From: Biomaibacter acetigenes
GTDB lineage: Bacteria > Bacillota > Thermosediminibacteria > Thermosediminibacterales > Tepidanaerobacteraceae
DNA length: 64,000 bases
Direction of reading: 5' to 3'
NCBI RefSeq assembly: GCF_003691585.1
Contig: NZ_CP033169.1
Coordinates: 620,001-684,000, forward strand
Shown: piece after piece, positions 5,138-54,522 of the stretch
How positions within the stretch are numbered: position 1 is the first letter of the stretch
How the letters are laid out: the number at the start of each line of letters is the position of its first letter
Program-made: the position numbers and the translations under genes
The notes under the pieces: model-generated
The model's database searches: none
Seen by the model: the letters and a program-made list of their open reading frames with translations, nothing else
Told to the model about the DNA's origin: nothing

Positions 5138-5187
5138 TGTTTTAATGAATAATATGCAGAATTAATAATTAAAAGGTGGTTAGAATA

Positions 5188-12410: not shown

Positions 12411-12520
12411 ATTTCCATGTTATACCATTAACTGCATAAGTCCTGTATATCAATTAAACAAACATGGGGCAACGGCTTGCTGAGCGACCTGCAATTTTTA
12501 ATAGCTCTATTGCTTTCTTA

Positions 12521-12529
12521 TGATATAAT
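12521..12529 (+). promoter_or_regulatory. extended -10 promoter of the Wadjet operon
   Basis: TGA-TATAAT (TATAAT at 12524-12529) forms an extended -10 element 41 bp upstream of the chosen jetA start. No strong -35 box is seen. It is AT-rich sequence directly before the GC-rich Wadjet genes. Confidence 0.5.
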
Positions 12530-12569
12530 TAGCATGAAGAATACCTTTCAACTTTATAAGGTGAATACT

Positions 12570-14757: not shown

Positions 14758-14768
14758 GGGAGGTTGTC

Positions 14769-18119: not shown

Positions 18120-18127
18120 CCTCGGAT

Positions 18128-19670: not shown

Positions 19671-20347
19671 GTAAATTACCCCTTTTTGTAAAATGCCAGT
19701 TTAAATATAAATGATAAATGTTTTTGTGGATTATCTAAAAACATTATATCACAGCGCGAAAGAATTTTAAAATCCAGCTTATTACAAAAAAATGCTGGTT
19801 GTTATTCTTATCTTATTTAAGAGAGTTTTTAATTATTATTGAAAACAGGATGATATGATTTGAAAATAAATTTTTACAGCATTTTTTAGATAACAATTTT
19901 TTATTACCACTACTTACAGGGGTTGTCGCCAGAGTGGAAACGCCATAGTAAAATTGGTTCCCACTTTAATGGGTACCGCCGCTGAAAAATTGACCCGCCC
20001 ACAGAATATGCGACAGATAAGCCAGGTCAAATGAACCTGCAGTATTTGGGGAAGTTTACTAATTATTCAAAAGAATTTGATGGCTTTGAACGGCACCTGG
20101 CAACGAATTATTCTGGTTGTTGCGAAATTCAGGAAAGAAGTTAATCCACCGTTTATGGCTTATGAACTATAATATCGAGGTCGCAAGGGAACAGGTGGTC
20201 AATGGTATCCTCCAATTCTTTTATGGATACCCGGGGTTTGTCTGCTATTTCTGAAGTTGCTCCATTCAGAAAATATATTTCGTTTCTTCTGTGACAATGA
20301 TAAAATAACAAACAGATAGGAATTCGTTTAAATAAGGTGGAATGGAT
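19671..20347. other. AT-rich intergenic region with probable mobile-element debris
   Basis: About 680 bp without a supported gene. 19680-19915 is very AT-rich. From about 19920 to 20290 composition shifts: a patch beginning GTTGTCGCCAGAGTGG resembles IS21-type element ends, and the minus strand at about 20155-20265 holds a short open tail (SIKELEDTIDHLFPCD) ending in a stop at 20153. Neither end is intact. The last part contains the leader of the PucR gene. Confidence 0.3.
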
Positions 20348-21994
20348 ATGGGCATTACAGTGCAAGAAGCACTTCGAATAGGGGAATTGAAAAATGCGAA
20401 GGTAATAGCAGGGGAAAAGGGCCTTGATAGAATTGTAAATTATGTAATCACGATGGATGTTCCTGATGCTGCTAAGTGGATCAGAGGAAATGAACTTTTG
20501 CTTACAGCGGCATATGTTTTTATGAATAATCCTGATATGGAGAAAACCTTCGTTTATGATTTGGTCGAAAGAAATTGCTCTGCTCTTGCCATAAAACCCG
20601 GAAGATTTATTGACAAAATTCCACCGCAGATAATAGAGCCCGCAAATGAAAAAAATTTTCCAATTATTGAACTGCCGGTATATGTAGCCTGGCATGATAT
20701 AGTAAATCCTATCATGCTGGAAATATTGAACAAAGAAGCAGGCATTATAAAGCGTTCCTTTGAAATACACGATGAGCTCATGAAGGTTGCGCTGCAGGGT
20801 GGAGATCTGGCGGCTGTTGCCGGCACTCTTTCCTATCTTTTAAACTGCAATGTTTTTATAGAAGACGAAAGTTTTAATCTTTTATCCTTCTCAAACTGCC
20901 GTGGTGCCTGCGATGCATTAAGCCTGGAGATAATAAAAAACGGCAGGATTCCTCTTGACGTGATTGAAGAGATGGATAAAAAAGGAATATTTAATAAGAT
21001 AAAAACATTTAAAAAGCCCGTGAGGGTGAATATAAGGAGTAAAAACAACTGTTATACAAGAGTAATAGCGCCCATTATAATTAAAGGCGAAATATGCGGT
21101 TATATCACTTTGATTGAAAACGACTCGCGATTTGGCGATTTTGATTTGATAGCCGCCGAACAGGCGGCAACAATCGCCGCACTTGAAATCATGAAAAAGC
21201 AGGCGGTAAAGCAGGCAGAAGGGAAAGTGAAAAGAGAATTTTTTGAAAATATCCTTGCGGGAAATATAAAGGATGCCTCACAGATAAAAAGCCGGCTGAA
21301 ATATTATGGCGTGAATTTTAAAGGGGATATTGCCGTGATAGTCATCCATATGAATTATGAAAGCGCTTTAAAAGCGGAAGAAGAAGATTTCAAGGGCTTT
21401 GAAAGTGTAATGGCGCCGCTTTCGCATGTGATATTGAGAAAAGGTGAAGATATAATAATAATTTGCAGTTTCTCCGACGTTAGGACCATCGGAAAATACG
21501 ATGAAATAAATATTCTGTGCAAAAACATTTCAAAAAGTCTGGGAGGCATAAAAGAGATAAGATTTGGTATCAGCGATTTTCATGACGATGTAGCAAAAAT
21601 ATCTGAAGGATACATTGAGGCCAAAAGATCCCTGGAACTTGCGGATATGTTAAAAAATGGTACCGGCAGCATAGTGTTTTATAAAGATGTATGGATATAT
21701 GATTTTATTTTAAGCTGTAAGGAAAACGAAAATCTTAAAAAATTCTGCGATAGAAGACTTCTCAAACTCATCGAATACGATTCAAAAAACAAAGAGGAAA
21801 ATTTGCTAAACACCCTGAGAGTTTATCTTGATTGCACAGGCAAACATAATATGGCCGCCGAAAAGCTTTTTATCCACCGGAATACCTTAAATTACAGGTT
21901 AAACAAGATAAGAGAGATACTCGACTGCGACCTGAACGACCCTTCCACCAGGTTGAGGCTCGAGATTGGTTTAAAAATAGCTAACTTATTATAA
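20348..21994 (+). CDS. PucR-family transcriptional regulator A
   Basis: About 548 residues with the full PucR/CdaR layout: an N-terminal PucR domain (MGITVQEALRIGELKNAKVIAG), a central GAF/GGDEF-like region, and a C-terminal helix-turn-helix (AAEKLFIHRNTLNYRLNKIREIL region at residues about 503-527). ATG 20348 is chosen over ATG 20342 because AAGGTGG ends at 20340. It stands upstream of cluster A and has a paralogue at the right end of cluster B (62456-63592, minus strand) whose N-terminus begins almost identically. PucR proteins usually activate nitrogen-compound catabolism in response to substrate. Confidence 0.92.
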   Translation: MGITVQEALRIGELKNAKVIAGEKGLDRIVNYVITMDVPDAAKWIRGNELLLTAAYVFMNNPDMEKTFVYDLVERNCSALAIKPGRFIDKIPPQIIEPANEKNFPIIELPVYVAWHDIVNPIMLEILNKEAGIIKRSFEIHDELMKVALQGGDLAAVAGTLSYLLNCNVFIEDESFNLLSFSNCRGACDALSLEIIKNGRIPLDVIEEMDKKGIFNKIKTFKKPVRVNIRSKNNCYTRVIAPIIIKGEICGYITLIENDSRFGDFDLIAAEQAATIAALEIMKKQAVKQAEGKVKREFFENILAGNIKDASQIKSRLKYYGVNFKGDIAVIVIHMNYESALKAEEEDFKGFESVMAPLSHVILRKGEDIIIICSFSDVRTIGKYDEINILCKNISKSLGGIKEIRFGISDFHDDVAKISEGYIEAKRSLELADMLKNGTGSIVFYKDVWIYDFILSCKENENLKKFCDRRLLKLIEYDSKNKEENLLNTLRVYLDCTGKHNMAAEKLFIHRNTLNYRLNKIREILDCDLNDPSTRLRLEIGLKIANLL

Positions 21995-22007
21995 TACTTA
22001 TTATAAT
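21984..22007 (+). repeat. two tandem copies of a 12-bp unit
   Basis: ACTTATTATAAT is repeated head to tail over the PucR stop codon. The unit differs at one base from the half-site of the palindrome at 38337-38361. It may be a regulator site or chance in AT-rich DNA. Confidence 0.35.
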
Positions 22008-22069
22008 AAAAGAATCTTTGATTCTTAATCCTGGGGTATAAATTTATTCAAGATTTTATTTGAAAAATT

Positions 22070-22116
22070 ACAGCTTCTTTATTGGGCATTTTGCACAATT
22101 AAGAAGCTGTTTTTTA
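22070..22116 (+). terminator. rho-independent terminator after PucR A
   Basis: ACAGCTTCTT and AAGAAGCTGT pair around a 21-nt loop and are followed by TTTTTT. It separates the PucR gene from the racemase gene, so cluster A is transcribed from its own promoter. Confidence 0.8.
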
Positions 22117-22215
22117 TTATTAATGCAATAGGTTAAACATATTTTATTGTGTTAAAATTAAAAATAACAGTATGGTAGCAATATTATAAAAATTGTACGA
22201 CAAAGGAGGGATTTG

Positions 22216-22902
22216 ATGATATTAGATATAATTGTGCCCGTATCTACCGATATATGGAACAAAGAGGTGGAATTGGAAGCCGAAAAAATAAAAAGCCCGG
22301 GCATACAGGTGAGGGTAACGTCATTAACAAAAGGCCCTGTATCGATAGAGTCGGAATATGATGAAGCATTCGCAAGCCCCTGTGTCATTTCACAAGCGGA
22401 AGAGTTAGAAATGAATGGTTCAAATGGCGTAGTAATATACTGTTTTGGAGAACCTGGCTTGCATGCATGTAAGGAAAAACTGAGTGTACCTGTGGTGGGA
22501 CTAAGGGAAGCGGCCGTATCCATGGCGAAAATTTTGGGTGACAGGATTGGCGTTATCTCCACTATAAAAAGTGCTGTCCCAAGGCATGTTAGAGCTTTAA
22601 AACATGAGGTACATAAAGTGGTGGCTGTGGATATGCCCGTTCTGGATTTTGTAAATGTTCGCGAACTGGAAAAGCGAATAGAAATGAAAATTCAGGAACT
22701 AATAAATTATGGCTGCGATGTCATAGTTTTGGGATGCGGGTCAATGTTAAATATAGATATAAAAAGGATGCAAAACGAATACGGCATACCCATCGTTATC
22801 CCGCTCGATGCTGCTGTAGCCGTCTGTGAGTATTTGATGAAAAATAATTTAAAACAGAGCAAGCTGACCTATCCTTTTCCGCCGGTTAAGGAAATCAAAT
22901 GA
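22216..22902 (+). CDS. Asp/Glu/hydantoin racemase-family protein
   Basis: 228 residues, two-domain racemase fold. The two catalytic-type cysteines are in VVIYCFGEPG and VIVLGCGSML. The family includes hydantoin, allantoin, aspartate and glutamate racemases and isomerases that use a Cys pair for proton transfer. The second motif reads GCGSM instead of the usual GCTGM, as in the protein at 49039. ATG 22216 follows AGGAGGG. It is first in cluster A, after PucR and its terminator. Substrate cannot be told. Confidence 0.85.
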   Translation: MILDIIVPVSTDIWNKEVELEAEKIKSPGIQVRVTSLTKGPVSIESEYDEAFASPCVISQAEELEMNGSNGVVIYCFGEPGLHACKEKLSVPVVGLREAAVSMAKILGDRIGVISTIKSAVPRHVRALKHEVHKVVAVDMPVLDFVNVRELEKRIEMKIQELINYGCDVIVLGCGSMLNIDIKRMQNEYGIPIVIPLDAAVAVCEYLMKNNLKQSKLTYPFPPVKEIK

Positions 22903-23030
22903 TTATCAAATTATTTTGATATGCAAAATGCATAAAATAGTCAGGAAATTTGTTATAAATGCATAATGAAATACAAGTATACAATATGATAAAATTAAGA
23001 ATCAAAACGCAATACTAAAGGAGCGATATC

Positions 23031-24428
23031 GTGGAGGGAATTCTGAATTTAAAAATCGACGAATATTTTGATGATATAATAAAGAATCTTCAAGAATTTA
23101 TAAATATTCCAAGCGTTTTAGATGAAGAAAAGACGGATGAAAGCTTTCCCTTCGGGCCCAAAATAGATGAAGCTCTTAGATGGATATTAAAAAAAGGCAA
23201 TGAGATGGGGTTAAAATCAAAAAATGTAGATAGTTATGCAGGATATATTGAGATAGGTAACGGCCCTGAGATGGTAGGGATTTTGGGCCATATAGATGTA
23301 GTCCCGGCGGGGGCAGGCTGGTCAGTGGATCCTTTCGAAGGGCAGATTAAAGAAGGTAAACTGTATGGCAGGGGCTCCGTAGACGATAAGGGACCTATTA
23401 TGGCTGTACTGTACGCGTTGAAGGCAATAGAGGATTCCCGTCTGCCGGTTTCAAAGAGAGCGCGCCTCATTATAGGAACCGACGAGGAGACCGGTGCAAG
23501 ATGCATAAAGTATTACCTTGAAAAGGAAGAGCCGCCTATATGCGGTTTTTCTCCAGATGCAGAATTTCCCATAATACATGCAGAAAAGGGCATTTTGCGC
23601 TTTGAATTGACAAAAAGCTTCGACGAGGGCCCAAGACCCGGGGCGAATCTAAAAAGAATACGGGGCGGAACCCGTGTGAATGTGGTACCCGACTATGCGG
23701 AAGCTGTAATAGAAGGTGTGGATGATGAGAAAATAGAATCTAAAATTAGAGAACAGGGGCTTGCAGGCAAAATATATATAGAGAAGTCGCTGGAAGGTGT
23801 CATTTTAAAAGCAAAAGGTATTTCGGCCCATGCTAGTTACCCGGGGGACGGGGAAAACGCCATTCAAATACTCCTGAATTTCCTAACACTGATTGATTTT
23901 GGCGGTAAAGAGGCAAAAACTTTCATTGATGCGGTAGCCGGTAAATTAAAAATGGAGTCAGATGGAAAAACTCTTGGAATATCCTGCAGCGACGACATTT
24001 CGGGAGCTCTAACAATAAATCTGGGCGTAGTGGATTTTGATGAAAAACGGGGAAGCCTTAAGTTTGACATAAGGTATCCTGTAACGGTAGACGGAAACGA
24101 TATAATTGCAAATCTCAAAAAAGCTTTCGATGATTTGGGGGCGGAATTTTTGATAAACCAGCACAAATTGCCTCTATACGTCGAGCCGGAAACCGAATTT
24201 ATAAAAAAACTGCAGGGCGTATATAAAGAGATGACCGGTGACGAACCAAAGCTCCTGTCAATAGGAGGGGGCACATACTGCAGGTATATAAAAAATACTG
24301 TTTCCTTCGGTCCGGTTTTCCCCGGACAAAAAGAACTGGCTCATCAGAAGGATGAATATATTGCTCTTGAAGATCTGAGGAAAATAGGGAAGATTTATGC
24401 TCAGGCAATTTATGAGTTAATAAAATAA
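23031..24428 (+). CDS. M20 family dipeptidase (PepV type)
   Basis: 465 residues, GTG start at 23031 after AAAGGAGCG. Dizinc peptidase motifs are in order: GILGHIDVVPAG, GRGSVDDKGP, the catalytic Glu in GTDEETG, a metal Asp in GFSPDAEFP, and a C-terminal His in KELAHQKDEY. A lid domain lies between. PepV-type enzymes cleave dipeptides, including those with beta-Ala or D-residues, in the cytoplasm. Its place between a racemase and NicX/M29-like genes, upstream of an OPT transporter, supports peptide breakdown by cluster A. Confidence 0.9.
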   Translation: MEGILNLKIDEYFDDIIKNLQEFINIPSVLDEEKTDESFPFGPKIDEALRWILKKGNEMGLKSKNVDSYAGYIEIGNGPEMVGILGHIDVVPAGAGWSVDPFEGQIKEGKLYGRGSVDDKGPIMAVLYALKAIEDSRLPVSKRARLIIGTDEETGARCIKYYLEKEEPPICGFSPDAEFPIIHAEKGILRFELTKSFDEGPRPGANLKRIRGGTRVNVVPDYAEAVIEGVDDEKIESKIREQGLAGKIYIEKSLEGVILKAKGISAHASYPGDGENAIQILLNFLTLIDFGGKEAKTFIDAVAGKLKMESDGKTLGISCSDDISGALTINLGVVDFDEKRGSLKFDIRYPVTVDGNDIIANLKKAFDDLGAEFLINQHKLPLYVEPETEFIKKLQGVYKEMTGDEPKLLSIGGGTYCRYIKNTVSFGPVFPGQKELAHQKDEYIALEDLRKIGKIYAQAIYELIK

Positions 24429-24492
24429 AAATCAGTTTGATTTTAAGACTTTCTGTTAAAAAACTTTTATTCTTAAGAAAGGATGATTCACT

Positions 24493-25555
24493 GTGGAGTT
24501 GAACATCGGAATAGAACCGGCAAAAGAATATTTGAGCTTCGAACTTGCAAAAGGTGCTCTAAAACTGGTGAAAGACGTAATGCTGGTTAAGGAAGGAGAG
24601 AATGTTGTTATAACCGCCGATTCTTCCACTGATCGAAGAGTAGTTGAGGCTACGGCCAATGCAGTTTACAGCATAGGAGCGATGCCGACCGTAATATATT
24701 ATCCCACTGCACCCAATGCGTGTATTGAACCTCCTGCACCTGTGGGAAGAGCAGTTGCGAAAGCAGATGTCTGGATAGAATACACTTATTCTTATGTCAT
24801 GCACTCGCCCTCCTGGAAAAGATCTCTGGAAAACGGTTGCAGGTATATATGTCTTACCGGTATGGATGTGGAAATGCTGGTGAAGACGAACTAGAGTTGA
24901 TTATGACCTGCTTATTGAGTTGGGAGAGTTGTTGAAAGATACGATTCAATCTGCGGATGAAATAATAGTTAAAAGTGATAATGGTACTTACCTGACAGCC
25001 CACAATCATGGAAGGAGGGTGCGCCATTCAGGGCAGAAGGCCACTCAAAAAGGCTATCCCATCATGCTGGGCGGCCAGATAAGCTGGTGTCCGGTAGAGA
25101 GCACCATTAACGGGACACTGGTCTTTGATGGAGCTCTGTGGCCGCCGCTGGAGCTGGGGTTACTCAAGAATCCGGTCAAACTGAAATTAAAAGAAGGTCG
25201 GGTGGTAAGCATAGACGGAGATGTGGAAGCGAAGATCTTTGAAAACTGGCTGAAATCGATGAATGACCCGAATATGTACAGGCTTGCACACTATTCTCTG
25301 GGCTTCAACCCCGGTGTGACAAGACCCACCGGTAGAATTGTAGAAGACGAGAGGGTATTTGGCTGCATGGAATTCGGCATCGGCAGCCAGGGAGCATCAA
25401 TCATGGGAGAATGCTGGTCGGCCGCATCTCATTCGGACGGTATTTTATTGAAACCCACGATTATTTTGGACGGCAAGGTTTTTGAAGAAAACGGCATATA
25501 TCAGCTGCCGGAAGCAAGGGAGATATGCAGGAGATTAAATGTGGCAGGGTATTGA
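24493..25555 (+). pseudogene. NicX/M29-like enzyme, frameshifted
   Basis: The first part (24493-24894, GTG start) ends at MDVEMLVKTN. The rest resumes in another frame with RVDYDLLIELGELL and runs to 25555. Comparison with the next gene, which reads VNTIGRVNYSKMLELG here, shows that a few bases are missing at about 24888-24895. The C-terminal part keeps the motif set LAHYSLGFNPG and SHSDGI. The downstream gene is a full-length close paralogue, so loss of this copy may be tolerated. It could be functional only if the break is a sequence error. Confidence 0.82.
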
Positions 25556-25679
25556 TGTAATCTCGAAATTTTTTCTTACGTAATTAAAAATGTTTATGAT
25601 TTTAGTGCGACGATTAATATGGGAATGTATTTTCAAAGTCATATTTTATCTTGCTATGTATGAAAGGAAGGTAATATTT

Positions 25680-26735
25680 ATGGAATTAAATATAGGCATT
25701 GAAACAAGGGATGAATTTTTATCCTTAGAACTTGCAAAAAGTGCAAGAAAATTAGTGGAAGGCATAATGTTAGTAAAAGAGGGTGAAGAGGTAGTAATTA
25801 CAGGAGATACTTCTTCGGATAGGCGAGTTATAGAAGAAGTGGCCAAGGCAGCATACGCTGCAGGAGCCGTACCTACGGTAATATGGTATGATACCAGGCC
25901 CACCGCTGTGATGGAACCTCCCAGGGTAGTTGCGGGAGCCGTAAAAAATGCGGACGTCTGGATAGAGTTTTCGTACGCATATATACTTCATACCCAGGCC
26001 TGGAGACGTTCTTTGGACGAAGGCTGCCGTTATATCTGCCTGACCGGGATGGATGCTTTAATGATGGTGAATACTATCGGCAGGGTCAATTATTCTAAAA
26101 TGCTGGAGTTAGGTGAAAAATTGCGGCAATTAGCCGAAAATGCCGATGAGGTGATAATTCAAAGCCCGGCGGGAACAGATTTAAAAGCTTACAATAGAGG
26201 CAGAAAGGTAAGACAATCTGGTAAGCTGGCAGATACTAAAGGCGAACCCATAATGCTTGGCGGTCAGGTATCATGGTGCCCGGTTGAGGATACTATTAAT
26301 GGAAAGCTCGTATTCGACGGCGCTTTATGGCCCCCTGCTGAATTGGGTCTATTGCGTTCACCGATTGAGCTTACTCTTGAAAACGGAGTTGTTAAAAATA
26401 TCGAAGGAGGGGCGGAAGCGACAATATTTAAAAGATGGCTGGCAGCCTTTAATGACCCGACTATGTATTGGCTTGCCCATTATTCTCTGGGATTCAATCC
26501 AGGCGTAACTAAACCCACCGGGAGGATCGTCGAAGACGAAAGGGTATTCGGGTGCATTGAAATGGGTCTGGGAAGCCAGGGACCTCAGATAAAGGGCAAG
26601 ACATGGAAAAGCGCTTCCCACACCGACGGAATAGTGTTAAATCCAACGATAATTTTTGATGGAGAAGTCATAGAAAAAGAAGGCAAATATGTTCATCCGG
26701 AGCTAGTAAAACTTTGCAGTGAACTGGGAATATAA
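25680..26735 (+). CDS. NicX/M29-like metalloenzyme (annotated elsewhere as leucyl aminopeptidase)
   Basis: 351 residues from ATG 25680, which follows GGAAGG; the frame is open further upstream but without a ribosome site. The N-terminal half is a Rossmann-like domain (VKEGEEVVITGDTSSDRR), and the C-terminal half carries IVEDERVFGCIEMGLGS. A His in LAHYSLGFNPG and His/Asp in SHTDGI form a possible His...HxD metal site, as in NicX-type Fe(II) enzymes, whereas M29 aminopeptidases usually have Glu at the first place. The reaction is therefore uncertain. It is a paralogue of the preceding frameshifted gene and of 58526-59569. Confidence 0.82.
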   Translation: MELNIGIETRDEFLSLELAKSARKLVEGIMLVKEGEEVVITGDTSSDRRVIEEVAKAAYAAGAVPTVIWYDTRPTAVMEPPRVVAGAVKNADVWIEFSYAYILHTQAWRRSLDEGCRYICLTGMDALMMVNTIGRVNYSKMLELGEKLRQLAENADEVIIQSPAGTDLKAYNRGRKVRQSGKLADTKGEPIMLGGQVSWCPVEDTINGKLVFDGALWPPAELGLLRSPIELTLENGVVKNIEGGAEATIFKRWLAAFNDPTMYWLAHYSLGFNPGVTKPTGRIVEDERVFGCIEMGLGSQGPQIKGKTWKSASHTDGIVLNPTIIFDGEVIEKEGKYVHPELVKLCSELGI

Positions 26736-26839
26736 TTAAGAATATTAACAATGGCTATATCCTTTTGGAGGTGATGTTGTATGCATTGAGCAAATACCAA
26801 TAAAAATACCTGAAACATTATGAAAAGGAGGCACAACGC

Positions 26840-28426
26840 ATGGATTTACCGGAAAACAGAACTGTAGTCAGTGTGGAAGAAAATGATCCAATAATTGAAA
26901 AATATCTAAAGATGCCACACCCCAGGACATTCGAACCCGGAACTCTTATAGTAATTCTGGCTACATCTGTTCTGGGCGCAATAGTAGGATTGGAGCTCAT
27001 AGTAAGACTGGGAATTACTGCAAACACATCGATAATCGGGGCTCTAGTAGCTGTTCTTATTGGTTTGATACCGGGAAAACAATTTTCAGGTTTTAAAAAC
27101 ATCCACCGCCAGAACCTGGTGGAAACATCCATTTCTGCTGCTACTTTTGGGGCGGGCAATGCACTTTTGCTTTCCATGGGGACAATCTGGCTCATGGGCA
27201 AAATGAACATAGTGATGCCTATGTTTGTGGGAGCAATCATAGGAATGCTCATTGATATAACGATGATGTACTGGTTATTCGATACGCCTGCTTTTCCCGC
27301 CAATGAAGCATGGCCTCCCGGAATAGCCACCAGCGAAACCATTTTGGCTGCAGCGGAAGGTGGAAAGAGGGCTTTAATACTCGTAGGAGCTGGTATTGTA
27401 GGAGCTGTAGGCCAGTCCCTGAAAATACCTATGGATGTGGTAGGTGTAGCCTGGATCGGAAATATTTGGGCATTATTGATGTTCGGCGTGGGTTTATTAA
27501 TAAGAGCTTATTCAACGGCTTTATTTGGTGTCGACATTAACAAGCTCTATATTCCTCACGGTATAATGATAGGCGCCGGGATTGTCGCTTTAGTACAGAT
27601 CACACTAATAATTAAAGGAAAGAGGCTGACAAAACAAACCAAAAAAGACGAGGGAAAATCGGAATCAGCATATACCCCGACCAGAAGTTCCCAGGATATA
27701 ATGAACGCATTGCGAAACGGTTTCATACTTTATATTGCTGGCGGGCTGATACTGGCTATTATTGGCGGGGTATATTCAGATATGAGCGCACCGATGCTCA
27801 TATGGTGGATAATTTTTGCAGCTATAGCAGCCCTTGTTTCCGAGCTGATGGTTGGCATTTCGGCGATGCACGCGGGATGGTTCCCAGGTTTTGCCACAGC
27901 GCTGATATTCCTTGTATTGGGCATGTTGATGGGATTTCCGCCACTGGCTTTGGGAATTCTTGTCGGATATACTGCATGTACAGGCCCTGCTTTTGCCGAT
28001 ATGGGATACGATTTGAAGACCGGCTGGCTTTTAAGAGGAAAAGCTAAAGACAAAAACTATGAATTGTTTGGAAGGAGCCAGCAGTATTTTGCTGAAATTC
28101 TCGGTGCTGTAGTGGCCATATTCATGGTTGCCATAAGTTACCAGAGGTATTTTAACCAGGATTTATTCCCGCCAGTAGACAGAGTTTTTGCCGCCACGAT
28201 AAAAGCGGGAGCTCAACCATGGATATGGAAATATTTACTCCTGTGGGGCATCGTTGGGGCAATAATTCAATATGTCGGCGGCGCCGAGCGGCAAATAGGG
28301 ATATTATTTGCTACAGGTTTACTGATATTAAACCCAAAAGCCGGCTTTGCAGTGATAGTTGCTATAATCATAAGAGTATTGATTGAAAAAACATATGGCA
28401 GAAAGGCTCAAACTCCCATGTTATAG
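26840..28426 (+). CDS. OPT-family oligopeptide-type transporter
   Basis: 528 residues with 13-15 hydrophobic segments. OPT-like features include IHRQNLVETSISAATFGAGNA, FPANEAWPPGIATSE and a large second half with FADMGYDLKTGWLLRG. OPT proteins are proton-coupled importers of peptides or peptide-like and metal-chelate compounds. The frame stops at 28426, but the missing C-terminus (AAAGFIAGSTLYSFF then TSTMGIFTKKK) is encoded to 28506 in the -1 frame; one extra T near 28421 would restore it. ATG 26840 follows AAAGGAGG. This is the likely uptake system of cluster A. Confidence 0.88.
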   Translation: MDLPENRTVVSVEENDPIIEKYLKMPHPRTFEPGTLIVILATSVLGAIVGLELIVRLGITANTSIIGALVAVLIGLIPGKQFSGFKNIHRQNLVETSISAATFGAGNALLLSMGTIWLMGKMNIVMPMFVGAIIGMLIDITMMYWLFDTPAFPANEAWPPGIATSETILAAAEGGKRALILVGAGIVGAVGQSLKIPMDVVGVAWIGNIWALLMFGVGLLIRAYSTALFGVDINKLYIPHGIMIGAGIVALVQITLIIKGKRLTKQTKKDEGKSESAYTPTRSSQDIMNALRNGFILYIAGGLILAIIGGVYSDMSAPMLIWWIIFAAIAALVSELMVGISAMHAGWFPGFATALIFLVLGMLMGFPPLALGILVGYTACTGPAFADMGYDLKTGWLLRGKAKDKNYELFGRSQQYFAEILGAVVAIFMVAISYQRYFNQDLFPPVDRVFAATIKAGAQPWIWKYLLLWGIVGAIIQYVGGAERQIGILFATGLLILNPKAGFAVIVAIIIRVLIEKTYGRKAQTPML

Positions 28427-28533
28427 CAGCAGCCGGGTTTATTGCGGGTTCAACCCTCTATAGTTTCTTTACCAGTACAATGGGGATATTTACAAAGAAA
28501 AAATAACTAGAAGAAATAAATTTTGTTAATGGG

Positions 28534-28565
28534 GAAAACCGATGATAATCATCGGTTTTCTCTTC
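28534..28565 (+). terminator. terminator after the OPT gene
   Basis: GAAAACCGATGA and TCATCGGTTTTC pair perfectly around a 3-nt loop and are followed by a T-rich stretch. It may cause partial termination between the transporter and the downstream enzymes. Confidence 0.65.
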
Positions 28566-28610
28566 AAAAATATTTTTTATCTAAACCTTCAATGTGGGGA
28601 GGTAGCTAAA

Positions 28611-29258
28611 ATGAAAGAAATAAAAGTCGGCCTCATAAGAGTAGTTACTACGACAAATGAAAAAGTCCTTAATGCACATGCCAGCCTGCTCACTAGCCGG
28701 TTTAAAAATCTGGATATCGAAACAAAGTGCATTCCAAACCAGCCGGAAGGAATTCATGATGCCGAAACGGAGAAAATTGCGGTGCCCAAAATTATAAACC
28801 TTGCAAAAGATTTTGAAAGCAAAGGTGCCGATGTGGTTTTTATCAGTTGCGCTGCGGACCCGGGAGTGGAGGAATGCCGTAGGCTTTTGAACATTCCTGT
28901 GATAGGGGCTGGTTCCGCCTGCGCCATCATGGCCCAGAGCCTTGGAAACAAAGTAGGTGTGCTTGGCATAACCGAAGAAGCTCCGGAGGTTATGGTAAAA
29001 ATTTTAAAGGAAAAATTCGTTTGCAGCATTAAACCGGAGGGTGTAAATACCACTCTGGACCTATTTAAGGAGGAAGGCAGGGCAAATGCGTTGAAAGCGG
29101 CCGGCATGTTAAAAGAAAAAGGCTGCGACACCATAGCACTGGCCTGCACGGGCATGTCTACTATAAATGTACATGAGGATATAAGGGAAAATATAAAAAT
29201 ACGTGTAATAGATCCGGTGCTGGCTGCGGGGGTTATAATGTCTTACCTTCAATTTTAA
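28611..29258 (+). CDS. Asp/Glu/hydantoin racemase-family protein
   Basis: 215 residues from ATG 28611, which follows GGGAGG. Cysteines lie in VVFISCAADPG and in ALACTGMSTI, both at the usual catalytic places, and VLGITEEAPEVM matches the hinge region. It is more diverged from the other racemases of the window (which share CFxDP) and could act on a different substrate. It starts the run racemase, DUF917, DUF1177, M29-like, AroM, with short gaps that suggest one transcript. Confidence 0.86.
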   Translation: MKEIKVGLIRVVTTTNEKVLNAHASLLTSRFKNLDIETKCIPNQPEGIHDAETEKIAVPKIINLAKDFESKGADVVFISCAADPGVEECRRLLNIPVIGAGSACAIMAQSLGNKVGVLGITEEAPEVMVKILKEKFVCSIKPEGVNTTLDLFKEEGRANALKAAGMLKEKGCDTIALACTGMSTINVHEDIRENIKIRVIDPVLAAGVIMSYLQF

Positions 29259-29275
29259 GGGAAGGGAGAGCAACG

Positions 29276-30352
29276 ATGAGCAGATTGAAATTAACCGCCG
29301 AAATTGTTGATGCCGCCGTCCTCGGAGGATGCGTGCTGGGAGGCGGCGGTGGAGGCTCTATGGATGAGGGAAGAAAAATGGCTCTGCTGGCCGTTAACCT
29401 ATCATCTCCTGAGCTAATAGACATTGAGGACATAGATGAAAATTCCATATTGATTAACGTGGCTGCCGTAGGGGCGCCTTCCGCCAGGGATGCTTATGCT
29501 GAACCGGTGCATTACCTTCGGGCGGTGGAACTGGTAAATAAGGTGTCCGATATAAAAGTTGGAGGAATAATTACGAATGAGGCAGGGGGCCTTGCTACTG
29601 TGAATGGATGGCTGCAGGCGGCAATGCTGGGCATCCCCGTGGTAGACGCCCCATGTAATGGCCGGGCTCATCCTACAGGCATAATGGGTGCCATGGGTTT
29701 ACATAAAAATAAAGATTACAAATCAATTCAGGCAGCTGTTGGAGGCAGTAAAGAAAAGGCGACTTTTACAGAAGTCGTGGCCATGGGCTCGGTGGAAAAA
29801 GCATCTGCTGTTGTAAGGGCTGCCGCTGTCCAGGCCGGCGGTCTGGTATCAGTGGCCAGAAATCCGGTCTCATGCCGATATGCAAAAGACAATGCTGCTC
29901 TTGGAGCCATAAAACAGGCTATAAATTTAGGCCAAGAAATGATAAAAGCCATAGAAAGAGGCTCAAAAGCGGTCATAAATACGGCATGTGATTATCTAAA
30001 AGGTGAGTTGATAGTTTCCGGCACCATAGAAAAAGTTTATCTGGAATCAACAGGTGGCTTTGATGTAGGGAAGGTTATCTTAGAAAAAGATTATGAAATT
30101 ACATTCTGGAACGAATATATGACTTTGGAAAAATCGGGAGAGCGGCTTGCTACTTTCCCCGACCTTATAATGACACTGGATGCAGACACCGGAATTCCGG
30201 TCACTTCAGCCGAAATAAGAGAACGCCAGAAAATCGCCGTATTAAAGGCGGAAAAAGAGAAAATAAAATTAGGTGCAGGATTGCACGATCCTGAGCTTTT
30301 TTATGCATGTGAAAAAGCGGTAGGCAAAAAAATAATAGATTACGTCTTTTAG
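29276..30352 (+). CDS. DUF917 family protein (S-methyl thiohydantoin desulfurase-like)
   Basis: 358 residues, with the N-terminal glycine-rich signature VLGGCVLGGGGGGSMDEGRK and the family segment PVVDAPCNGRAHPTG. DUF917 was renamed after an S-methyl thiohydantoin desulfurase, and family members often stand beside hydantoinase-type genes. It lies 17 bp after a racemase-family gene and before DUF1177, so it probably acts on a ring intermediate of the same pathway; that is inference. It is clearly diverged from the two DUF917 proteins of cluster B (GCTILxTGGGG type). Confidence 0.86.
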   Translation: MSRLKLTAEIVDAAVLGGCVLGGGGGGSMDEGRKMALLAVNLSSPELIDIEDIDENSILINVAAVGAPSARDAYAEPVHYLRAVELVNKVSDIKVGGIITNEAGGLATVNGWLQAAMLGIPVVDAPCNGRAHPTGIMGAMGLHKNKDYKSIQAAVGGSKEKATFTEVVAMGSVEKASAVVRAAAVQAGGLVSVARNPVSCRYAKDNAALGAIKQAINLGQEMIKAIERGSKAVINTACDYLKGELIVSGTIEKVYLESTGGFDVGKVILEKDYEITFWNEYMTLEKSGERLATFPDLIMTLDADTGIPVTSAEIRERQKIAVLKAEKEKIKLGAGLHDPELFYACEKAVGKKIIDYVF

Positions 30353-30374
30353 GACGAAAAATGGAGGGATACTA

Positions 30375-31310
30375 ATGTTAAAACAGGTCCTGGAAATAAT
30401 AGATATTTTAGATGATGCCAGGGTAAATGGGCAAAAAGTCAAGGAGTTTTTATCAAAAAGAGGTCTTGATGACATTCTTGTAGAAGAAGTAAAGGGTGAA
30501 GTTGGCAAGACCGACTTTGTAAAAATAGTAGTTAAAGGTACCCGAGGGAAGCTCTCCGGTGGAGATGCACCGACGCTAGGGATCATAGGCAGGCTTGGCG
30601 GAATAGGTGCCCGGCCTGAAATGATAGGATATGTTTCGGACGGCGATGGGGCCGCTGCGGCCCTTTCGGTGGCGCTGAAATTGGCCGACATGAATTCTAA
30701 AGGAGATTTTCTCGATGGCGATGTAATCATTGCCACTCACATTTGCCCCGATGCGCCCACGGAGCCCCACGACCCCGTGCCGTTTATGGGTTCGCCGGTG
30801 GATATGCAGATGATGAATAAAATGGAAGTAGACCCCCGAATGGATGCCATTCTCTCCATTGATACAACAAAAGGCAACAGGATTGTCAACCAGAGGGGAT
30901 TTGCCATTACTCCGACTATTAAAGACGGTTATATACTTAAAATAAGCGATTCGCTTCTCGATATCATGCAGATAGTAACAGGAAAACTGCCGGTAGTTTT
31001 ACCAATAACGATGCAGGACATAACTCCATATGGCAATGGGATTTTTCATATAAACAGTTTGGTCCAGCCCTGCACTGCTACAACGAGCCCGGTGGTAGGG
31101 GTGGCCATAACTGCCGAAACGGCGGTGCCCGGATGTGCCACGGGAGCTTCCCATGAAGTAGATATAGAGCTTGCTGCAAGGTTTGCCCTGGAAGTCGCCA
31201 AAAACTTTGGCAGGAAGATATGCAAGTTTTACGATGAAAAAGAGTGGGAGATCATTACGAGACTATACGGTTCCATGGAACACCTAAAAACTCTGGAAGG
31301 AAAGAGATAA
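30375..31310 (+). CDS. DUF1177 family protein
   Basis: 311 residues, ATG after GGAGGG. Typical family segments include DAPTLGIIGRLGGIGARPEMIG, VIIATHICPDAPTEPHDPVPFMGSP and CATGASHEVDIE. The family has no established activity. Histidine and acidic residues in THICPDAPTEPHDP could bind metal and a Cys/His-containing stretch lies near the C-terminus. It is embedded between DUF917 and an M29-like enzyme with a 1-bp gap to the latter, so it is very likely part of one pathway. Confidence 0.85.
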   Translation: MLKQVLEIIDILDDARVNGQKVKEFLSKRGLDDILVEEVKGEVGKTDFVKIVVKGTRGKLSGGDAPTLGIIGRLGGIGARPEMIGYVSDGDGAAAALSVALKLADMNSKGDFLDGDVIIATHICPDAPTEPHDPVPFMGSPVDMQMMNKMEVDPRMDAILSIDTTKGNRIVNQRGFAITPTIKDGYILKISDSLLDIMQIVTGKLPVVLPITMQDITPYGNGIFHINSLVQPCTATTSPVVGVAITAETAVPGCATGASHEVDIELAARFALEVAKNFGRKICKFYDEKEWEIITRLYGSMEHLKTLEGKR

Positions 31311-31311
31311 G

Positions 31312-32259
31312 ATGAGTGAACTGGTAAGTATATCAAAAAAATTGCTTCTCGATTGCCTGGGGGCAAAACCCGGAGAAAAATACCTGGTACTGACCGATGA
31401 GCATAAAGAAGAACTGGCAGAGCATCTTTATGAAGCGGGAAAGGAATTAGGACTGACTTCCATGCTTTTTAAGATACCAGCCCTTTCAAAATCCGGTGAA
31501 GAACCGCCGAAAGCGGCGGCAGAGGCAATGAAAAATTCCGATGTGGTTATATGTATAACAGAGCATTCGTTAACCCATACCAGAGCTAAAAAAGATGCCG
31601 CTGCGGCGGGGGCAAGAATAGCCACCATGCCGGGGATTACAAAAGAGATGTTTCTGAGAGGCGCCATTACGGCGGACTACAGTGAAGTTGAAAAGTTGAC
31701 CAAAAAAATTGCTGAAATTTTAACTCTTGGAAGCAGTGTTGTCATAGAGAAAGACGGTTATAGGCTGGAGATGAGCATTGAAGGAAGAAAAGGTATTGAG
31801 AGCACCGGCAGGTATCTGGAAAAAGGTCAATCGGGGAATTTGCCGTCAGGAGAAGCATATATTGCACCTGTTGAAGGTTCGGCTGACGGAAAAATTTTAG
31901 TTGATGGAAGTATTGTGGGCCTGGGAATGTTGAAGTCGCCCATTTTGCTTGAAATCAGAAAAGGGTTATTATTTGACGCCCAGGGAGACGGCGCAAAAGA
32001 ATGGCTGGAAATGCTGGGGAGTTCCAATACCGCCAGAAATGTAGCGGAGTTTGGAATCGGGACAAATCCAAATGCCATATTGTCCGGAAATATATTGGAA
32101 GATGAAAAGATTTTGGGTACAATCCATGTGGCCTTTGGAAGCAACAATACATTTGGTGGTAAAGTCAGTGCGGGTGTGCACATGGATGCCGTAGTTCTGG
32201 AACCGACGGTTTATGTAGATAACCGGTTAATAATGGATAAAGGCAGGCTGGTTATATGA
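31312..32259 (+). CDS. M29-like aminopeptidase family protein
   Basis: 315 residues, ATG one base after the DUF1177 stop. It has the two-domain layout of M29-like proteins. Its metal-site pattern differs from the other copies: Glu in VAEFGIGTNPNA replaces the His of LAHYSLGFNPG, with the conserved ILEDEKILGTIHVAFG and a VHMDAV His/Asp. That set fits a true M29-type peptidase better than NicX. It may release an amino acid from a peptide or act on a related amide. A small stem-loop (ACCTGG/CCAGGT) follows the gene at about 32284-32299. Confidence 0.84.
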   Translation: MSELVSISKKLLLDCLGAKPGEKYLVLTDEHKEELAEHLYEAGKELGLTSMLFKIPALSKSGEEPPKAAAEAMKNSDVVICITEHSLTHTRAKKDAAAAGARIATMPGITKEMFLRGAITADYSEVEKLTKKIAEILTLGSSVVIEKDGYRLEMSIEGRKGIESTGRYLEKGQSGNLPSGEAYIAPVEGSADGKILVDGSIVGLGMLKSPILLEIRKGLLFDAQGDGAKEWLEMLGSSNTARNVAEFGIGTNPNAILSGNILEDEKILGTIHVAFGSNNTFGGKVSAGVHMDAVVLEPTVYVDNRLIMDKGRLVI

Positions 32260-32376
32260 GGGCACAACTTAAAAGAGTGCACACCTGGCTCTCCAGGTTG
32301 TACCTATCATTTATCGTGTTTTTATTCTCATAAAAATAAAATAAAGATATAATTGAAATGTATGAGGTGAATAATA

Positions 32377-33042
32377 ATGAAAAAGTTAGGTCTTTTAACC
32401 ATAGGCCAGGCTCCAAGGGTAGATCTCGTTCCGGAAATCAAAACAGTTCTGGGAGAAGATGTAGAAATCATTGAAAGAGGGGCTCTTGACGGACTCACAC
32501 TAAAAGAAGTAGAAGCCCTTTATCCCGGGCAGGATGACGAGGTCCTGGTTACCCGTATGGCCGATGATACTGAGGTAAAAGTGGCAGAAAGAGAAATCTT
32601 TCCCAGATTGAAAAATCAAATAAAAAAATTGGAGCTGGAAGGAATAAATACAATATTTCTGGCATGTACGGGGGAATTTCCCCCTTTTGATTCTGCTTCT
32701 CTTATCGTCCGACCTCAGAAAGTATTGCACCACGTGGTAAGTTCTGTGGCCGAAGGCCTGACGCTGGGAGTAATCATACCGGATGAACGTCAAGCAGTTT
32801 CGGCAATAAAGCGGTGGTCTACGGCGGCGGCAAAGGTGATTGTAGAACCGGGATCGCCTTACAAAGGGATAGGGAATGTAGAAAAAGCTGCAAAGTTACT
32901 GGCAAACTCAGGAGTTGATATTGTTGTTATGGACTGCATGGGATATACACTGCGGATGAAAGATGTAGTGTTGCGGCATGTTAAAAAACCAGTAATTCTG
33001 GCCCGTTCTATTGCAGCCAAAGTGGTAAGCGAATTATTGTAA
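32377..33042 (+). CDS. AroM family protein
   Basis: 221 residues, ATG after GAGGTG. The AroM pattern is clear: LGLLTIGQAPRVDLVPEI at the N-terminus, ERGALDGLT, and FLACTGEFPPF. A second Cys in VVMDCMGYTLRM matches the second catalytic position of Asp/Glu racemases, to whose superfamily AroM belongs. The function of AroM is unknown. A TATAAT-like box at about 32348 suggests its own promoter, but gene order ties it to the DUF917/DUF1177/OPT set. Confidence 0.88.
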   Translation: MKKLGLLTIGQAPRVDLVPEIKTVLGEDVEIIERGALDGLTLKEVEALYPGQDDEVLVTRMADDTEVKVAEREIFPRLKNQIKKLELEGINTIFLACTGEFPPFDSASLIVRPQKVLHHVVSSVAEGLTLGVIIPDERQAVSAIKRWSTAAAKVIVEPGSPYKGIGNVEKAAKLLANSGVDIVVMDCMGYTLRMKDVVLRHVKKPVILARSIAAKVVSELL

Positions 33043-35728: not shown

Positions 35729-35842
35729 TTTAGCTGCTTTTTCATAATATTATTCAGAAGGCTGAATACGATTGTAAAAAACCAGTCGCAGTTATAGAAA
35801 ACATAAGTGCATATAAAAAGAAAGATAAGGAAGTGGGTTAAA

Positions 35843-37729
35843 ATGGAAAAGGAATTATTGGAGAAGTTTATACTAACTGAAGAGTTAAAAGATATATTAA
35901 ATAATAAGGACAAGAAGGTGGTAGTGCCGGATAGCAGGGGTGAATTATTAAAACTTGCATTGGGCAATGATGAAGAATGTAACGTTTTTGAGGTTGCTTA
36001 CGATATACCAGGTAATGGTAGAGTTGTTGAGGCGACTGTTGCACGCTGTAAAAATGGTGCTGCGGTAAATTATACGGATATATACATGAGAAGAAGAGAC
36101 CCGGACTGTATGGTCGTTGCTGATAAAGGAGAAACTGATAAGCCAAGATACCGTGATAGATATGGAGAGGACTTTTCTTCCTTAAGACAAATAACTTTTG
36201 AGTGGCTCAAGCAACAAGACCTTATAGTTATGCCGTTTATGGCAGGAGGAGAAGAACTTGGATATCCTGCTCTTCTTGTTGCACCTGATAATGCAGGTTT
36301 TTTTGCTGCTGGACTTGCAGATTTACAAGGATTTATTCCCAAACACAGGATTCCAGACGGATTTAAACCAAAAACCATTATATATCTTGCACCTCCGTTC
36401 AGACACACGCATTTTGATGGTAAGCAGGTAGTTGTCCATAACAGGCTAAATGATGTACACGAACTTTTTTCGTACAATCTGTACCCGGGACCGAGCGCTA
36501 AAAAAGGAATTTATGGGGTGCTGCTAAACATCGGTGAATCGGAGGGATGGGTAACTGTCCATGCTTCAACGGTAAGAGTTATAACACCGTATGAGAATAT
36601 TATAACGATCATGCACGAAGGTGCCAGCGGCGGCGGAAAAAGTGAAATGATTGAGCAATTACACAAAGAACCGGACGGGAGAATACTGGTTGGGAAAAAT
36701 TTAAAAACTGGCGAAAAGCTATTTCTTGAATTAAAAGAGACGTGTGAGCTTCAACCTGTAACTGATGATATGGCATTGTGCCATCCTTCTTTGCAAAATG
36801 GCAATAAAAAACTGGTCGTTAAGGATGCAGAACAGGGATGGTTTTTGAGAATAAATCATATTACAAAATATGGTACTGACCCTTATTACGAGAAGCTTAC
36901 CATTCACCCGAAAGAACCTTTAATATTTTTAAATCTTGACGGCGTACCCGGCTCAACATGCCTGATTTGGGAACATACTATGGATGAACCGGGGAAACCC
37001 TGTCCTAATCCAAGGGTTATAATGCCGAGGCGATTTATCCCTGACGTAGTTGATGAACCTGTAGAAATTGATGTAAGAAGTTTTGGGGTCAGGACTCCTC
37101 CATGCACAAAAGAAAAGCCAACTTACGGCATTTTAGGATTGTTTCATATCCTGCCGCCTGCCCTTGCGTGGTTGTGGCGGTTAGTAGCACCAAGGGGACA
37201 TGATAACCCGAGTATCACAGACACTGTTGGAATGAGCAGTGAAGGTGTTGGTTCTTATTGGCCGTTTGCAACCGGAAAAATGGTTGACCAGGCAAATCTT
37301 TTATTAAGGCAGGTTATCCACACAACTAATACAAGGTATATACTTGTTCCAAATCAGCATATTGGAGCTTATAAAGTTGGATTTATGCCGCAATGGATTG
37401 CAAGGGAATATCTGGCACGGCGCGGAAGTGCCAGATTCAAGCCGGAACAGTTAGTTGAATCAAGGTGTGCGCTTTTAGGATATTCGTTAGAAACCATTAA
37501 GGTAGATGGAACGTATTTACCTAAAGGCTTTTTAGAGGTTAATCATCAACCGGAGGTAGGTAATGAAGGTTATGATGCCGGAGCAAAAATATTAAATAAT
37601 TTTTTCAAAAGAGAGCTTGCAAAATTTGTGTCACCTGACTTAGACCCATTAGGCAAAAAAATTATTGAATGCTGCATTTGCGACGGTACACTTAAAGATT
37701 ATTTGGAACTTATTCCCATGAAATTGTAG
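35843..37729 (+). CDS. DUF4914 family protein (PEP carboxykinase-like fold)
   Basis: About 628 residues from ATG 35843. A P-loop like that of ATP-type PEP carboxykinases is visible in MHEGASGGGKSEMIEQL, about residue 270, and further family-typical stretches are PGSTCLIWEHTMDEPG and ITDTVGMSSEGVGSYWPFATG. The family is widespread in Firmicutes and has no proven reaction; ATP-dependent phosphotransfer or decarboxylation is an inference from the fold. The gene is isolated by a terminator upstream and purine-gene debris downstream. Confidence 0.86.
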   Translation: MEKELLEKFILTEELKDILNNKDKKVVVPDSRGELLKLALGNDEECNVFEVAYDIPGNGRVVEATVARCKNGAAVNYTDIYMRRRDPDCMVVADKGETDKPRYRDRYGEDFSSLRQITFEWLKQQDLIVMPFMAGGEELGYPALLVAPDNAGFFAAGLADLQGFIPKHRIPDGFKPKTIIYLAPPFRHTHFDGKQVVVHNRLNDVHELFSYNLYPGPSAKKGIYGVLLNIGESEGWVTVHASTVRVITPYENIITIMHEGASGGGKSEMIEQLHKEPDGRILVGKNLKTGEKLFLELKETCELQPVTDDMALCHPSLQNGNKKLVVKDAEQGWFLRINHITKYGTDPYYEKLTIHPKEPLIFLNLDGVPGSTCLIWEHTMDEPGKPCPNPRVIMPRRFIPDVVDEPVEIDVRSFGVRTPPCTKEKPTYGILGLFHILPPALAWLWRLVAPRGHDNPSITDTVGMSSEGVGSYWPFATGKMVDQANLLLRQVIHTTNTRYILVPNQHIGAYKVGFMPQWIAREYLARRGSARFKPEQLVESRCALLGYSLETIKVDGTYLPKGFLEVNHQPEVGNEGYDAGAKILNNFFKRELAKFVSPDLDPLGKKIIECCICDGTLKDYLELIPMKL

Positions 37730-38047: not shown

Positions 38048-38221
38048 ATGGATTGTGAAAATAAAATCAGATGTTTGTCTAATAAAGTGGGAATAATAAT
38101 GGGAAGCGATTCGGATTTTCCTGTTATGAAGGAAGCTGCTAAAATACTTAAAGAATTTGGGATTGATTATGAGATAAATATTGTGTCGGCACACAGGACG
38201 CCGGATAATATGTATAATTAA
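38048..38221 (+). pseudogene. purE fragment (N-terminal third)
   Basis: 57 codons: [18 protein letters not shown] and [12 protein letters not shown] are unmistakable for N5-CAIR mutase (PurE, normally about 160 residues). The frame then ends at TAA and the remaining two thirds, including the C-terminal active-site parts, are absent. A good GGGGAG ribosome site is still present. Together with the purK fragment this is debris of a purine operon; intact copies presumably lie elsewhere. Confidence 0.8.
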
Positions 38222-38307
38222 ATAAGAAAAATAATAAGAAAGAAATGCTTTCAAAAGATTTTTTAAGAATTTGGTGGAATGAATGGATTTTTAAAGTTTT
38301 AAAAATG

Positions 38308-38336
38308 TTGCAATGATAGGGATAGTAGCGTATAAT
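38308..38336 (+). promoter_or_regulatory. sigma-A promoter of the second sugar locus
   Basis: TTGCAA at 38308-38313 and a perfect TATAAT at 38331-38336 are separated by 17 bp. The binding-protein ATG lies 42 bp downstream of the -10 box. Confidence 0.85.
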
Positions 38337-38361
38337 ACTTATTATAAGACTTATAATAAGT
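38337..38361 (+). promoter_or_regulatory. palindromic operator candidate
   Basis: A perfect 25-bp palindrome, ACTTATTATAAG-A-CTTATAATAAGT, begins at the base after the -10 box and spans the expected transcription start. Its position is ideal for repression. The most likely ligand-responsive regulator is the ROK protein encoded at 41554-42723 in the same operon. Confidence 0.75.
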
Positions 38362-38378
38362 TTGAGAGGAGGACAATA

Positions 38379-39695
38379 ATGAAAAGACATAAGGGGTTAG
38401 TTCTGTTTGTGGTTGTATTGCTGGCTGTAAGTGCACTGCTCGCCGGCTGCGGTGGGAATTCCGCTAAAAATCAGGGCGGCTCGGATGCGAAAAATGAGTC
38501 GCAGCCCGTCACCATCAATGTTCTTTCCAGCGATGATTTTGCGGGGTTCAGGAAAAGTGTTATTCCGGAATTTGAAGCAAAATATCCCAACATCAAAGTG
38601 AATTTTATGTCGGTAGGCTATGATTCGCTGCATCAAAAGGAAGTTACCGCTCTGGAATCCGGCGGAGATACATACGACGTGATAGATGTGGATTGTATCT
38701 GGACTCCGGAGTATGTGACCAAAGGCTATATTATCCCGGTGAATGACAGGATAACCCAGGAAATGAAAGATGACATAGTGCCTGCAGCGCTGGATATTCT
38801 CAAATATAAAGACAATTATTACGGTCTTCCCATGTTCAATGATGTGCTGTTCTTTTACTATAATGAAGATCTGTTGAAGCAGGCCGGTATAAATGAACCT
38901 CCGAAAACCTGGGATGAGTTGATACAGCAGACGAACTTGATGAAGCAAAAAGGGCTGATCGATTACGGCATGGTATGGGGATGGGCCCAGGCGGAAGGAT
39001 TGATCTGCTATTATACGGCGCTGGCGCACAGCTTTGGTGGAGATCTGGTAGACAGTTCCGGCAAACCTGCAGTCAATACGCCGCAAAATGTCAAGGCGCT
39101 GCAATTCATGGTGGATTCCATCGCCAACAAGGTTGTGGACCCTGCCTCTATAACTTACGACGACAGGCAAATGTTGAACGTTTTCAGCCAGGGCAGGGTA
39201 CCGTTCGGCATGAACTGGTCTTTTGCCTGGAGCGTGTTTAATGACAGCAATCAATCAAAAGTTGTGAACAAAATAAAAGTGGGTCTTGCACCGGCCGGGA
39301 CTCCCGAAGTAAAAAGCGCCACATGCGCCGGATCCATGGGTCTTGCCGTAACGTCCACATCGAAACATGCGGACGAAGCATGGAAATTCATAGAGTTTCT
39401 TGCCGGCAAGGACATACAAAAGAAACAGGCAATAACCGCTGGAGCACTCCCCATATGGAAATCCCTGTATGAGGATAAAGAGCTTCAGGAACAGCACCCT
39501 GCTTTGAAGGAAATGTCGGCTCAATTGGATACGGCTTACAACAGGCCGTCAATAGTCTGGTACAACGAGTTTTCCAATGCTCTTCAGGTCGAGATACAGA
39601 ACGCCTTGAATAAATCAAAAACACCACAGCAGGCACTTGATGACGCTCAGAAAAAAATCGATGAGATAATGAATAATTACGGCGGAAAATATTAA
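38379..39695 (+). CDS. sugar ABC transporter substrate-binding lipoprotein
   Basis: 438 residues from ATG 38379, which follows AGGAGG. A hydrophobic N-terminus ends in a lipobox with Cys24 (LLAGC), and the mature protein shows SBP_bac_1-type segments such as YYGLPMFNDVLFFYYNEDLLKQAG. It would bind a sugar outside the membrane and hand it to the two permeases that follow. It is preceded by a strong promoter and a palindromic operator, and followed by a hairpin that probably raises its expression above that of the permeases. Confidence 0.93.
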   Translation: MKRHKGLVLFVVVLLAVSALLAGCGGNSAKNQGGSDAKNESQPVTINVLSSDDFAGFRKSVIPEFEAKYPNIKVNFMSVGYDSLHQKEVTALESGGDTYDVIDVDCIWTPEYVTKGYIIPVNDRITQEMKDDIVPAALDILKYKDNYYGLPMFNDVLFFYYNEDLLKQAGINEPPKTWDELIQQTNLMKQKGLIDYGMVWGWAQAEGLICYYTALAHSFGGDLVDSSGKPAVNTPQNVKALQFMVDSIANKVVDPASITYDDRQMLNVFSQGRVPFGMNWSFAWSVFNDSNQSKVVNKIKVGLAPAGTPEVKSATCAGSMGLAVTSTSKHADEAWKFIEFLAGKDIQKKQAITAGALPIWKSLYEDKELQEQHPALKEMSAQLDTAYNRPSIVWYNEFSNALQVEIQNALNKSKTPQQALDDAQKKIDEIMNNYGGKY

Positions 39696-49749: not shown

Positions 49750-49765
49750 GAAGGTGGTGGCCAGA

Positions 49766-50482: not shown

Positions 50483-50504
50483 TTTAAAGACAGGGAGGCA
50501 CATT

Positions 50505-50664: not shown

Positions 50665-50693
50665 TCGGTGAAAAGAAGTTTAGGAGTGGTATT

Positions 50694-53434: not shown

Positions 53435-53445
53435 GTTTTGAAAAA

Positions 53446-53477: not shown

Positions 53478-53498
53478 AAACTTCAGGGGGATGAAACA

Positions 53499-54509: not shown

Positions 54510-54522
54510 GAAGGTGGTTAAA

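Follow-up and report, generated by a model that had tools for sequence, protein, structure and literature searches.

The window, a 64,000-nucleotide stretch of the Biomaibacter acetigenes genome (contig NZ_CP033169.1, positions 620,001 to 684,000, forward strand), contains at 26840-33042 a block of six genes, in which one importer precedes a racemase, ring-type and amide-cleaving enzymes and the AroM protein. This block is the core of a real operon that is widely shared among bacteria and archaea. All six open reading frames (ORFs) lie on the + strand where the preliminary description had placed them, the single base that it reported between the DUF1177 and M29-like genes is present (31310 / 31312), and it sums the block up fairly as an importer combined with enzymes of racemase, ring-type and amide-cleaving kinds. 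The genes and the two features found in the gaps between them are as follows.

26840-28426, + strand: OPT-family importer (PF03169 in 23 of 24 family members); about 25 C-terminal codons lie in another frame, to about 28508
28530-28580, + strand: terminator- or attenuator-like hairpin separating the importer from the enzymes (-20.8 kcal/mol, z -6.7), also conserved in a same-genus genome, G299
28611-29258, + strand: RaceB, of the Asp/Glu/hydantoin racemase family, with two cysteines (PF01177, 6e-29); ORF open from 28542
29276-30352, + strand: DUF917, a ring hydrolase-like protein of the S-Me-THD type (PF06032 and PF20906, S-Me-THD_N/C)
30375-31310, + strand: DUF1177 (PF06675, 463 bits), with a predicted MH-clan (M28/M42/M20-like) fold
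31312-32259, + strand: M29c, M29-type metallopeptidase-like (PF02073, 36.2 bits, cut-off 27)
32260-32376, + strand: C-terminal remnant of a lost gene of family c15 (GHNLKECTPGSPGCTYHLSCFY; 17.0 bits to the c15 model)
32377-33042, + strand: AroM, a two-cysteine member of the racemase superfamily (PF07302, 250 bits, cut-off 23.8)

Conservation was measured in 299 evenly drawn Bacillota genomes, with a true AroM defined by an E-value below 1e-50. DUF1177 is present in 33 of these and AroM in 28, the two occurring together in 24 genomes (24/28 of those with AroM; Fisher 4e-24) and lying about 2 kb or less apart in 21. The preliminary description had named rarity of this pairing in other genomes as grounds for refuting its proposal; the pairing is instead very strong, and the block proved conserved as a unit. 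Around the 33 DUF1177 genes the neighbours include AroM (21), racemase (19), PucR (19), DUF917 (16), M29 (14), OPT (12), Opp permease (8), c15 (6) and cyclodipeptide oxidase subunit B (2), while 14 control regions of the same genomes, a small set, contained no module genes barring general ABC ATPases and one M20. The 33-locus sample is the fair test of conservation, since a further set of 80 named loci consists of the best matches to the window's DUF1177 from species genomes and is biased. Within that set, AroM lies no more than 6 kb from DUF1177 and shares its strand at 53 loci, and all six genes are found at 19 (14 Bacillota, 2 Spirochaetes, 2 Synergistetes and 1 Thermococcus). AroM adjoins DUF1177 in 11/11 taxon groups sampled, with just 1/9 in Bathyarchaeota. 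At one archaeal module locus (L051:13753-15678) a gamma-glutamyltranspeptidase gene stands between AroM and OPT. At L163, a locus without AroM, DUF1177 has an aldehyde ferredoxin oxidoreductase gene beside it.

The block had been called self-contained, which it is not: a PucR gene, a second racemase, a PepV gene and two M29-like genes lie upstream of it, in G299 as well as here.

20342-21994, + strand: PucR-type regulator, likely the controller of the operon (PF07905, 110 bits, and HTH_30)
22213-22902, + strand: RaceA, of the Asp/Glu/hydantoin racemase family (PF01177, 3e-30); the G299 equivalent is at the same place
23031-24428, + strand: PepV-type M20 dipeptidase (NCBIfam PRK07318, dipeptidase PepV, 539 bits, cut-off 435)
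24493-25555, + strand: M29b copy 1, with its frame broken at about 24890-24920; both pieces match the M29b model
25680-26735, + strand: M29b copy 2 (M29b model, 406 bits; ligands H,E,E,H,D); ORF open from 25590

The operon thus reads PucR, RaceA, PepV, M29b, M29b, OPT, RaceB, DUF917, DUF1177, M29c, AroM, and the same order is found in G299 (locus L144), where every gene is intact. There the homologue of M29b copy 1 has 354 amino acids (L144:5210-6274) and that of OPT 557, and neither the break in M29b copy 1 nor that in the window's OPT frame, near 28410-28430 with the C-terminal AAGFIAGSTLYSFF read on in another frame, is present. Two further window genes, at 3321-4155 and 5176-6980, are seemingly split as well; the split reading frames in the window reflect either sequencing indels or decay. 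Identity across the operon between the two genomes is just 74-81%, against 93% for 38205-39446, which could reflect either fast divergence or operon exchange. A close relative, A05DMB13 (L032:9613-9621), lacks the segment corresponding to 26745-29987, which covers OPT, RaceB and the greater part of DUF917. About 9 bases are shared at the junction, and the gap is either a true deletion or an assembly error in a metagenome-assembled genome of low coverage.

The intergenic segments hold more than spacing. The hairpin between OPT and RaceB is kept in G299 with a changed loop, and could plausibly act as a partial terminator that sets the level of the importer against that of the enzymes; part of the 28426-28611 gap is the out-of-frame C-terminus of OPT. 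The 118-bp gap noted earlier before AroM does exist, but it is no simple spacer, as it holds the c15 remnant, whose 17.0 bits (28.8 for the longer remnant in G299) compare with 3.7 for the best of 200 shuffles. Intact c15 genes lie between DUF1177 and AroM in loci L139, L147, L150, L170 and L172, which together with the remnant indicates that the ancestral unit had one more member. The window itself contains an intact homologue (61446-62297), without any Pfam or NCBIfam match; the family has three conserved C-terminal cysteines and can be placed weakly with an ISOCOT-like fold (best E 2e-3; predicted local distance difference test, pLDDT, 66). Ahead of AroM, at 32325-32353, lies a promoter-like match that was discarded as evidence, since it is not kept in G299 and comes from a scan that gave 39 matches where 30 were expected.

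The window's importer alone has no Pfam match even at E 10 and no PDB match. It is assigned to OPT because 23 of 24 aligned relatives, to which it is 41-60% identical, match PF03169 (best 2.9e-43). OPT and Opp permeases are mutually exclusive at the sampled DUF1177 loci (12/33 and 8/33, P 0.015), while M20/PepV dipeptidases are repeated neighbours and an S51 dipeptidase is added at Serratia and Brenneria loci; this exchange of importers, together with the M20, PepV and S51 dipeptidases, points to peptide-like substrates. NCS1-type permeases are found with a CN-hydrolase at loci L092 and L104 and without it at L091 and L093. The window's genome repeats the theme, with six DUF917 genes in four clusters, every one adjoining racemases, whose importers are OPT, Opp, Liv and, by sequence reading, an NCS1-like protein. 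One of these toolkit clusters lies further along the window and two more at 2.97 and 3.09 Mb of the genome.

49039-62297, + strand: second toolkit cluster, with four racemases, a complete Opp importer, two DUF917 genes, M29b and c15 (hidden Markov model and Pfam matches)
62456-63613, - strand: PucR beside the second toolkit cluster

The ring-directed part of the operon is suggested by DUF917, a family now named S-Me-THD_N/C in Pfam. The block's DUF917 is homologous over its full length to thiohydantoin and S-methyl thiohydantoin desulfurases (NF058529, NF058532), at 326 bits (cut-off 440) and 284 bits, whereas the window's other two DUF917 genes reach 75-86 bits. Across loci, block DUF917 proteins score 250-326 bits against the two models and none attains the equivalog cut-offs of 440/450. 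The statement that at least three of the families have no proven reaction is therefore too strong for DUF917, given these full-length relatives, even though they fall below the cut-offs. The block differs from the desulfurase systems in having no other enzyme of the thiohydantoin pathway, and from a classical hydantoin utilisation operon in that no hydantoinase and no N-carbamoylase is found among its Pfam and NCBIfam matches. Searches of the open literature on diketopiperazine hydrolases and thiohydantoin desulfurase gave nothing usable.

A second indication comes from cyclodipeptide oxidase (CDO). CDO clusters without a cyclodipeptide synthase are described, in the relevant passages of a recent study, as enriched in PF01177, DUF917, AroM and OPT and Opp importers, with a role in purine or secondary metabolism proposed (PMC11055893, Nat Commun 2024); those passages do not mention DUF1177. 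They resemble the present operon in their racemase, DUF917, AroM, OPT/Opp and peptidase content. CDO occurs in 9/299 Bacillota genomes, and every CDO locus sampled is flanked by M29, DUF917, racemase, AroM or peptide-importer genes. The six-gene set, whole or in part, is joined to CDO genes at locus L134 (PucR, M29b, OPT, RaceB, DUF917, DUF1177, AroM, oxidase A, oxidase B) and at the Blautia locus L056, where a fused oxidase directly follows the module, with CDO also nearby at L084 and L135. Taken with the closeness of the block's DUF917 to thiohydantoin desulfurases, these neighbours make a ring substrate likely for the operon.

No function has been assigned to DUF1177 in the literature searched, one incidental mention being found in 5.4 million open papers, and no sequence relative was found among solved structures. 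Its AlphaFold2 model (pLDDT 83.8) resembles metallo-enzymes of the MH clan (Foldseek E 1e-8; Z 16-17.6 over 220-260 residues), with Z-scores of 17.6 to the TET M42 aminopeptidase, 17.0 to the Aeromonas aminopeptidase and 16.9 to M20. The likeness to M28/M42/M20 metallo-aminopeptidases is thus one of predicted fold, which carries the clan assignment because profile-profile comparison with M42 gave no link; a further difference is that the HxD motif is apparently absent. Invariant residues comprise D89/D91, D163, H132, D215 and H225, whereas H260 is replaced by Q in 5/27. The order of motifs and the predicted strands suggest that D163 and the bridging Asp (D89/D91) are kept, while the HxD position seems to be occupied by R73-L-G75 and the EE position to fall near H122, in loops of low pLDDT. 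On this model DUF1177 could be either a metal-dependent hydrolase whose site has been rewired or a protein no longer capable of metal catalysis.

Both M29-like families show profile likeness to the 2,5-dihydroxypyridine dioxygenase NicX and to the M29 aminopeptidases PepS, AmpS and AmpT (NicX 8e-21, PepS 6e-10). The five M29 ligand positions (E,E,H,H,D), located by alignment to AmpS, correspond in M29c to E246, E265, H272, H290 and D292, which are kept in 15/15 members. In M29b (6/6) the first and third of these positions carry H and E instead of the E and H of the peptidase type, with H where NicX has H265. A route through an oxygen-dependent pyridine dioxygenase related to NicX was set aside, as the M29c ligands are peptidase-type and the relatives include many anaerobes; such a role would be unlikely if the host is an anaerobe. 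A fragment at 48804-48998 matches just the last 60 positions of an M29-like model and is probably a gene remnant. AroM, a protein that received its name in the 1980s and still has no assigned function (from a reference given in PMC11055893), shares invariant C97 and C187 with hydantoin-type racemases in alignment, so both racemase cysteines are intact. Hydantoin-type racemases are also the nearest solved relatives, the best for the racemases being 2eq5.

Elsewhere in the window are a Wadjet-type jetABCD set matching type III models (JetA3, B3, C3, D3) at 12477-19555, with JetD on the opposite strand, and a DUF4914 protein of 640 amino acids at 35807-37729, matched over its full length at 1116 bits.

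The reading preferred here, to which we give an even chance of being correct, is that the operon at 20342-33042 is controlled by PucR and catabolises small imported amides derived from peptides, most probably cyclic and of the diketopiperazine or hydantoin type. For the substrate, for the sequence of steps and for what DUF1177, DUF917 and AroM catalyse, we infer the following scheme. OPT would import the compound, RaceA, RaceB and AroM would invert alpha-carbons by a two-cysteine mechanism, DUF917 would open the ring, and DUF1177, M29c and PepV would hydrolyse the remaining amide or dipeptide, the resulting amino acids then being fermented. A more specific form is put forward tentatively and is doubtful as it stands: the module would be a prokaryotic pathway dedicated to cyclic-dipeptide catabolism, travelling through bacteria and archaea with peptide importers that can replace one another, DUF1177 would be an MH-clan amidase of a new kind whose metal site has been rewired, and AroM would be an epimerase of the same substrate. 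Several observations weigh against the catabolism of cyclic amides by this operon. At L163 (L163:6145-10534) DUF1177 lies within an operon for a Liv-type branched-chain importer that has no AroM, and at L155 and L158 it is found without any module gene; it is thus not bound to a single substrate. About half of the DUF1177 loci have no DUF917. The window's genome contains no CDO gene (PF19585, CDOA/CDOB), and the direct link to cyclodipeptides consequently runs through relatives only. Decay of the window copy is one possible reason for the frame breaks in OPT and M29b copy 1, and the conserved hairpin may split the transcript.

Some of the same evidence would suit a pathway with no ring at all, in which the substrates are linear dipeptides or isopeptides with D-residues or unusual ones, such as peptidoglycan or aged protein might supply. 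The racemases would then correct the stereochemistry, and M29c, DUF1177 and PepV would act as ordinary dipeptidases. The Opp and OPT importers, the PepV, M20 and S51 dipeptidases, the full M29 ligand set of M29c and the many DUF1177 loci without DUF917 are all in keeping with it; the relatives of DUF917 are ring enzymes, however, and CDO and NCS1-type permeases at some loci would not be expected, and we consider this account possible but somewhat improbable. A five-membered hydantoin or thiohydantoin ring, which would relate the block to thiohydantoin or ergothioneine breakdown, is favoured by the desulfurase scores of the block's DUF917, by the hydantoin-type racemases, by the NCS1 permeases with CN-hydrolase and by a histidine ammonia-lyase gene at 47098-48636. 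It is nevertheless unlikely, as no tested DUF917 member comes up to the equivalog cut-offs, the block has no urocanase-like or hydantoinase/carbamoylase gene and the commonest transporters are dipeptide importers. That the genes serve instead to synthesise a modified cyclic peptide metabolite is very improbable: secondary metabolism is named as a possibility for clusters of these families in the passages of PMC11055893 cited above, and EamA exporters occur in four loci, but no peptide-bond-forming enzyme is found in the block or its recurrent neighbour clusters, where importers and hydrolases predominate.

Across many phyla AroM and DUF1177 share an operon with an importer, racemases, a presumed ring hydrolase and peptidases, which brings three poorly understood families into one assayable pathway. 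If cyclic dipeptides are indeed what is degraded, the operon would provide a genetic basis for the way in which anaerobes and gut microbes, Blautia among them, break down a common class of peptide by-product.

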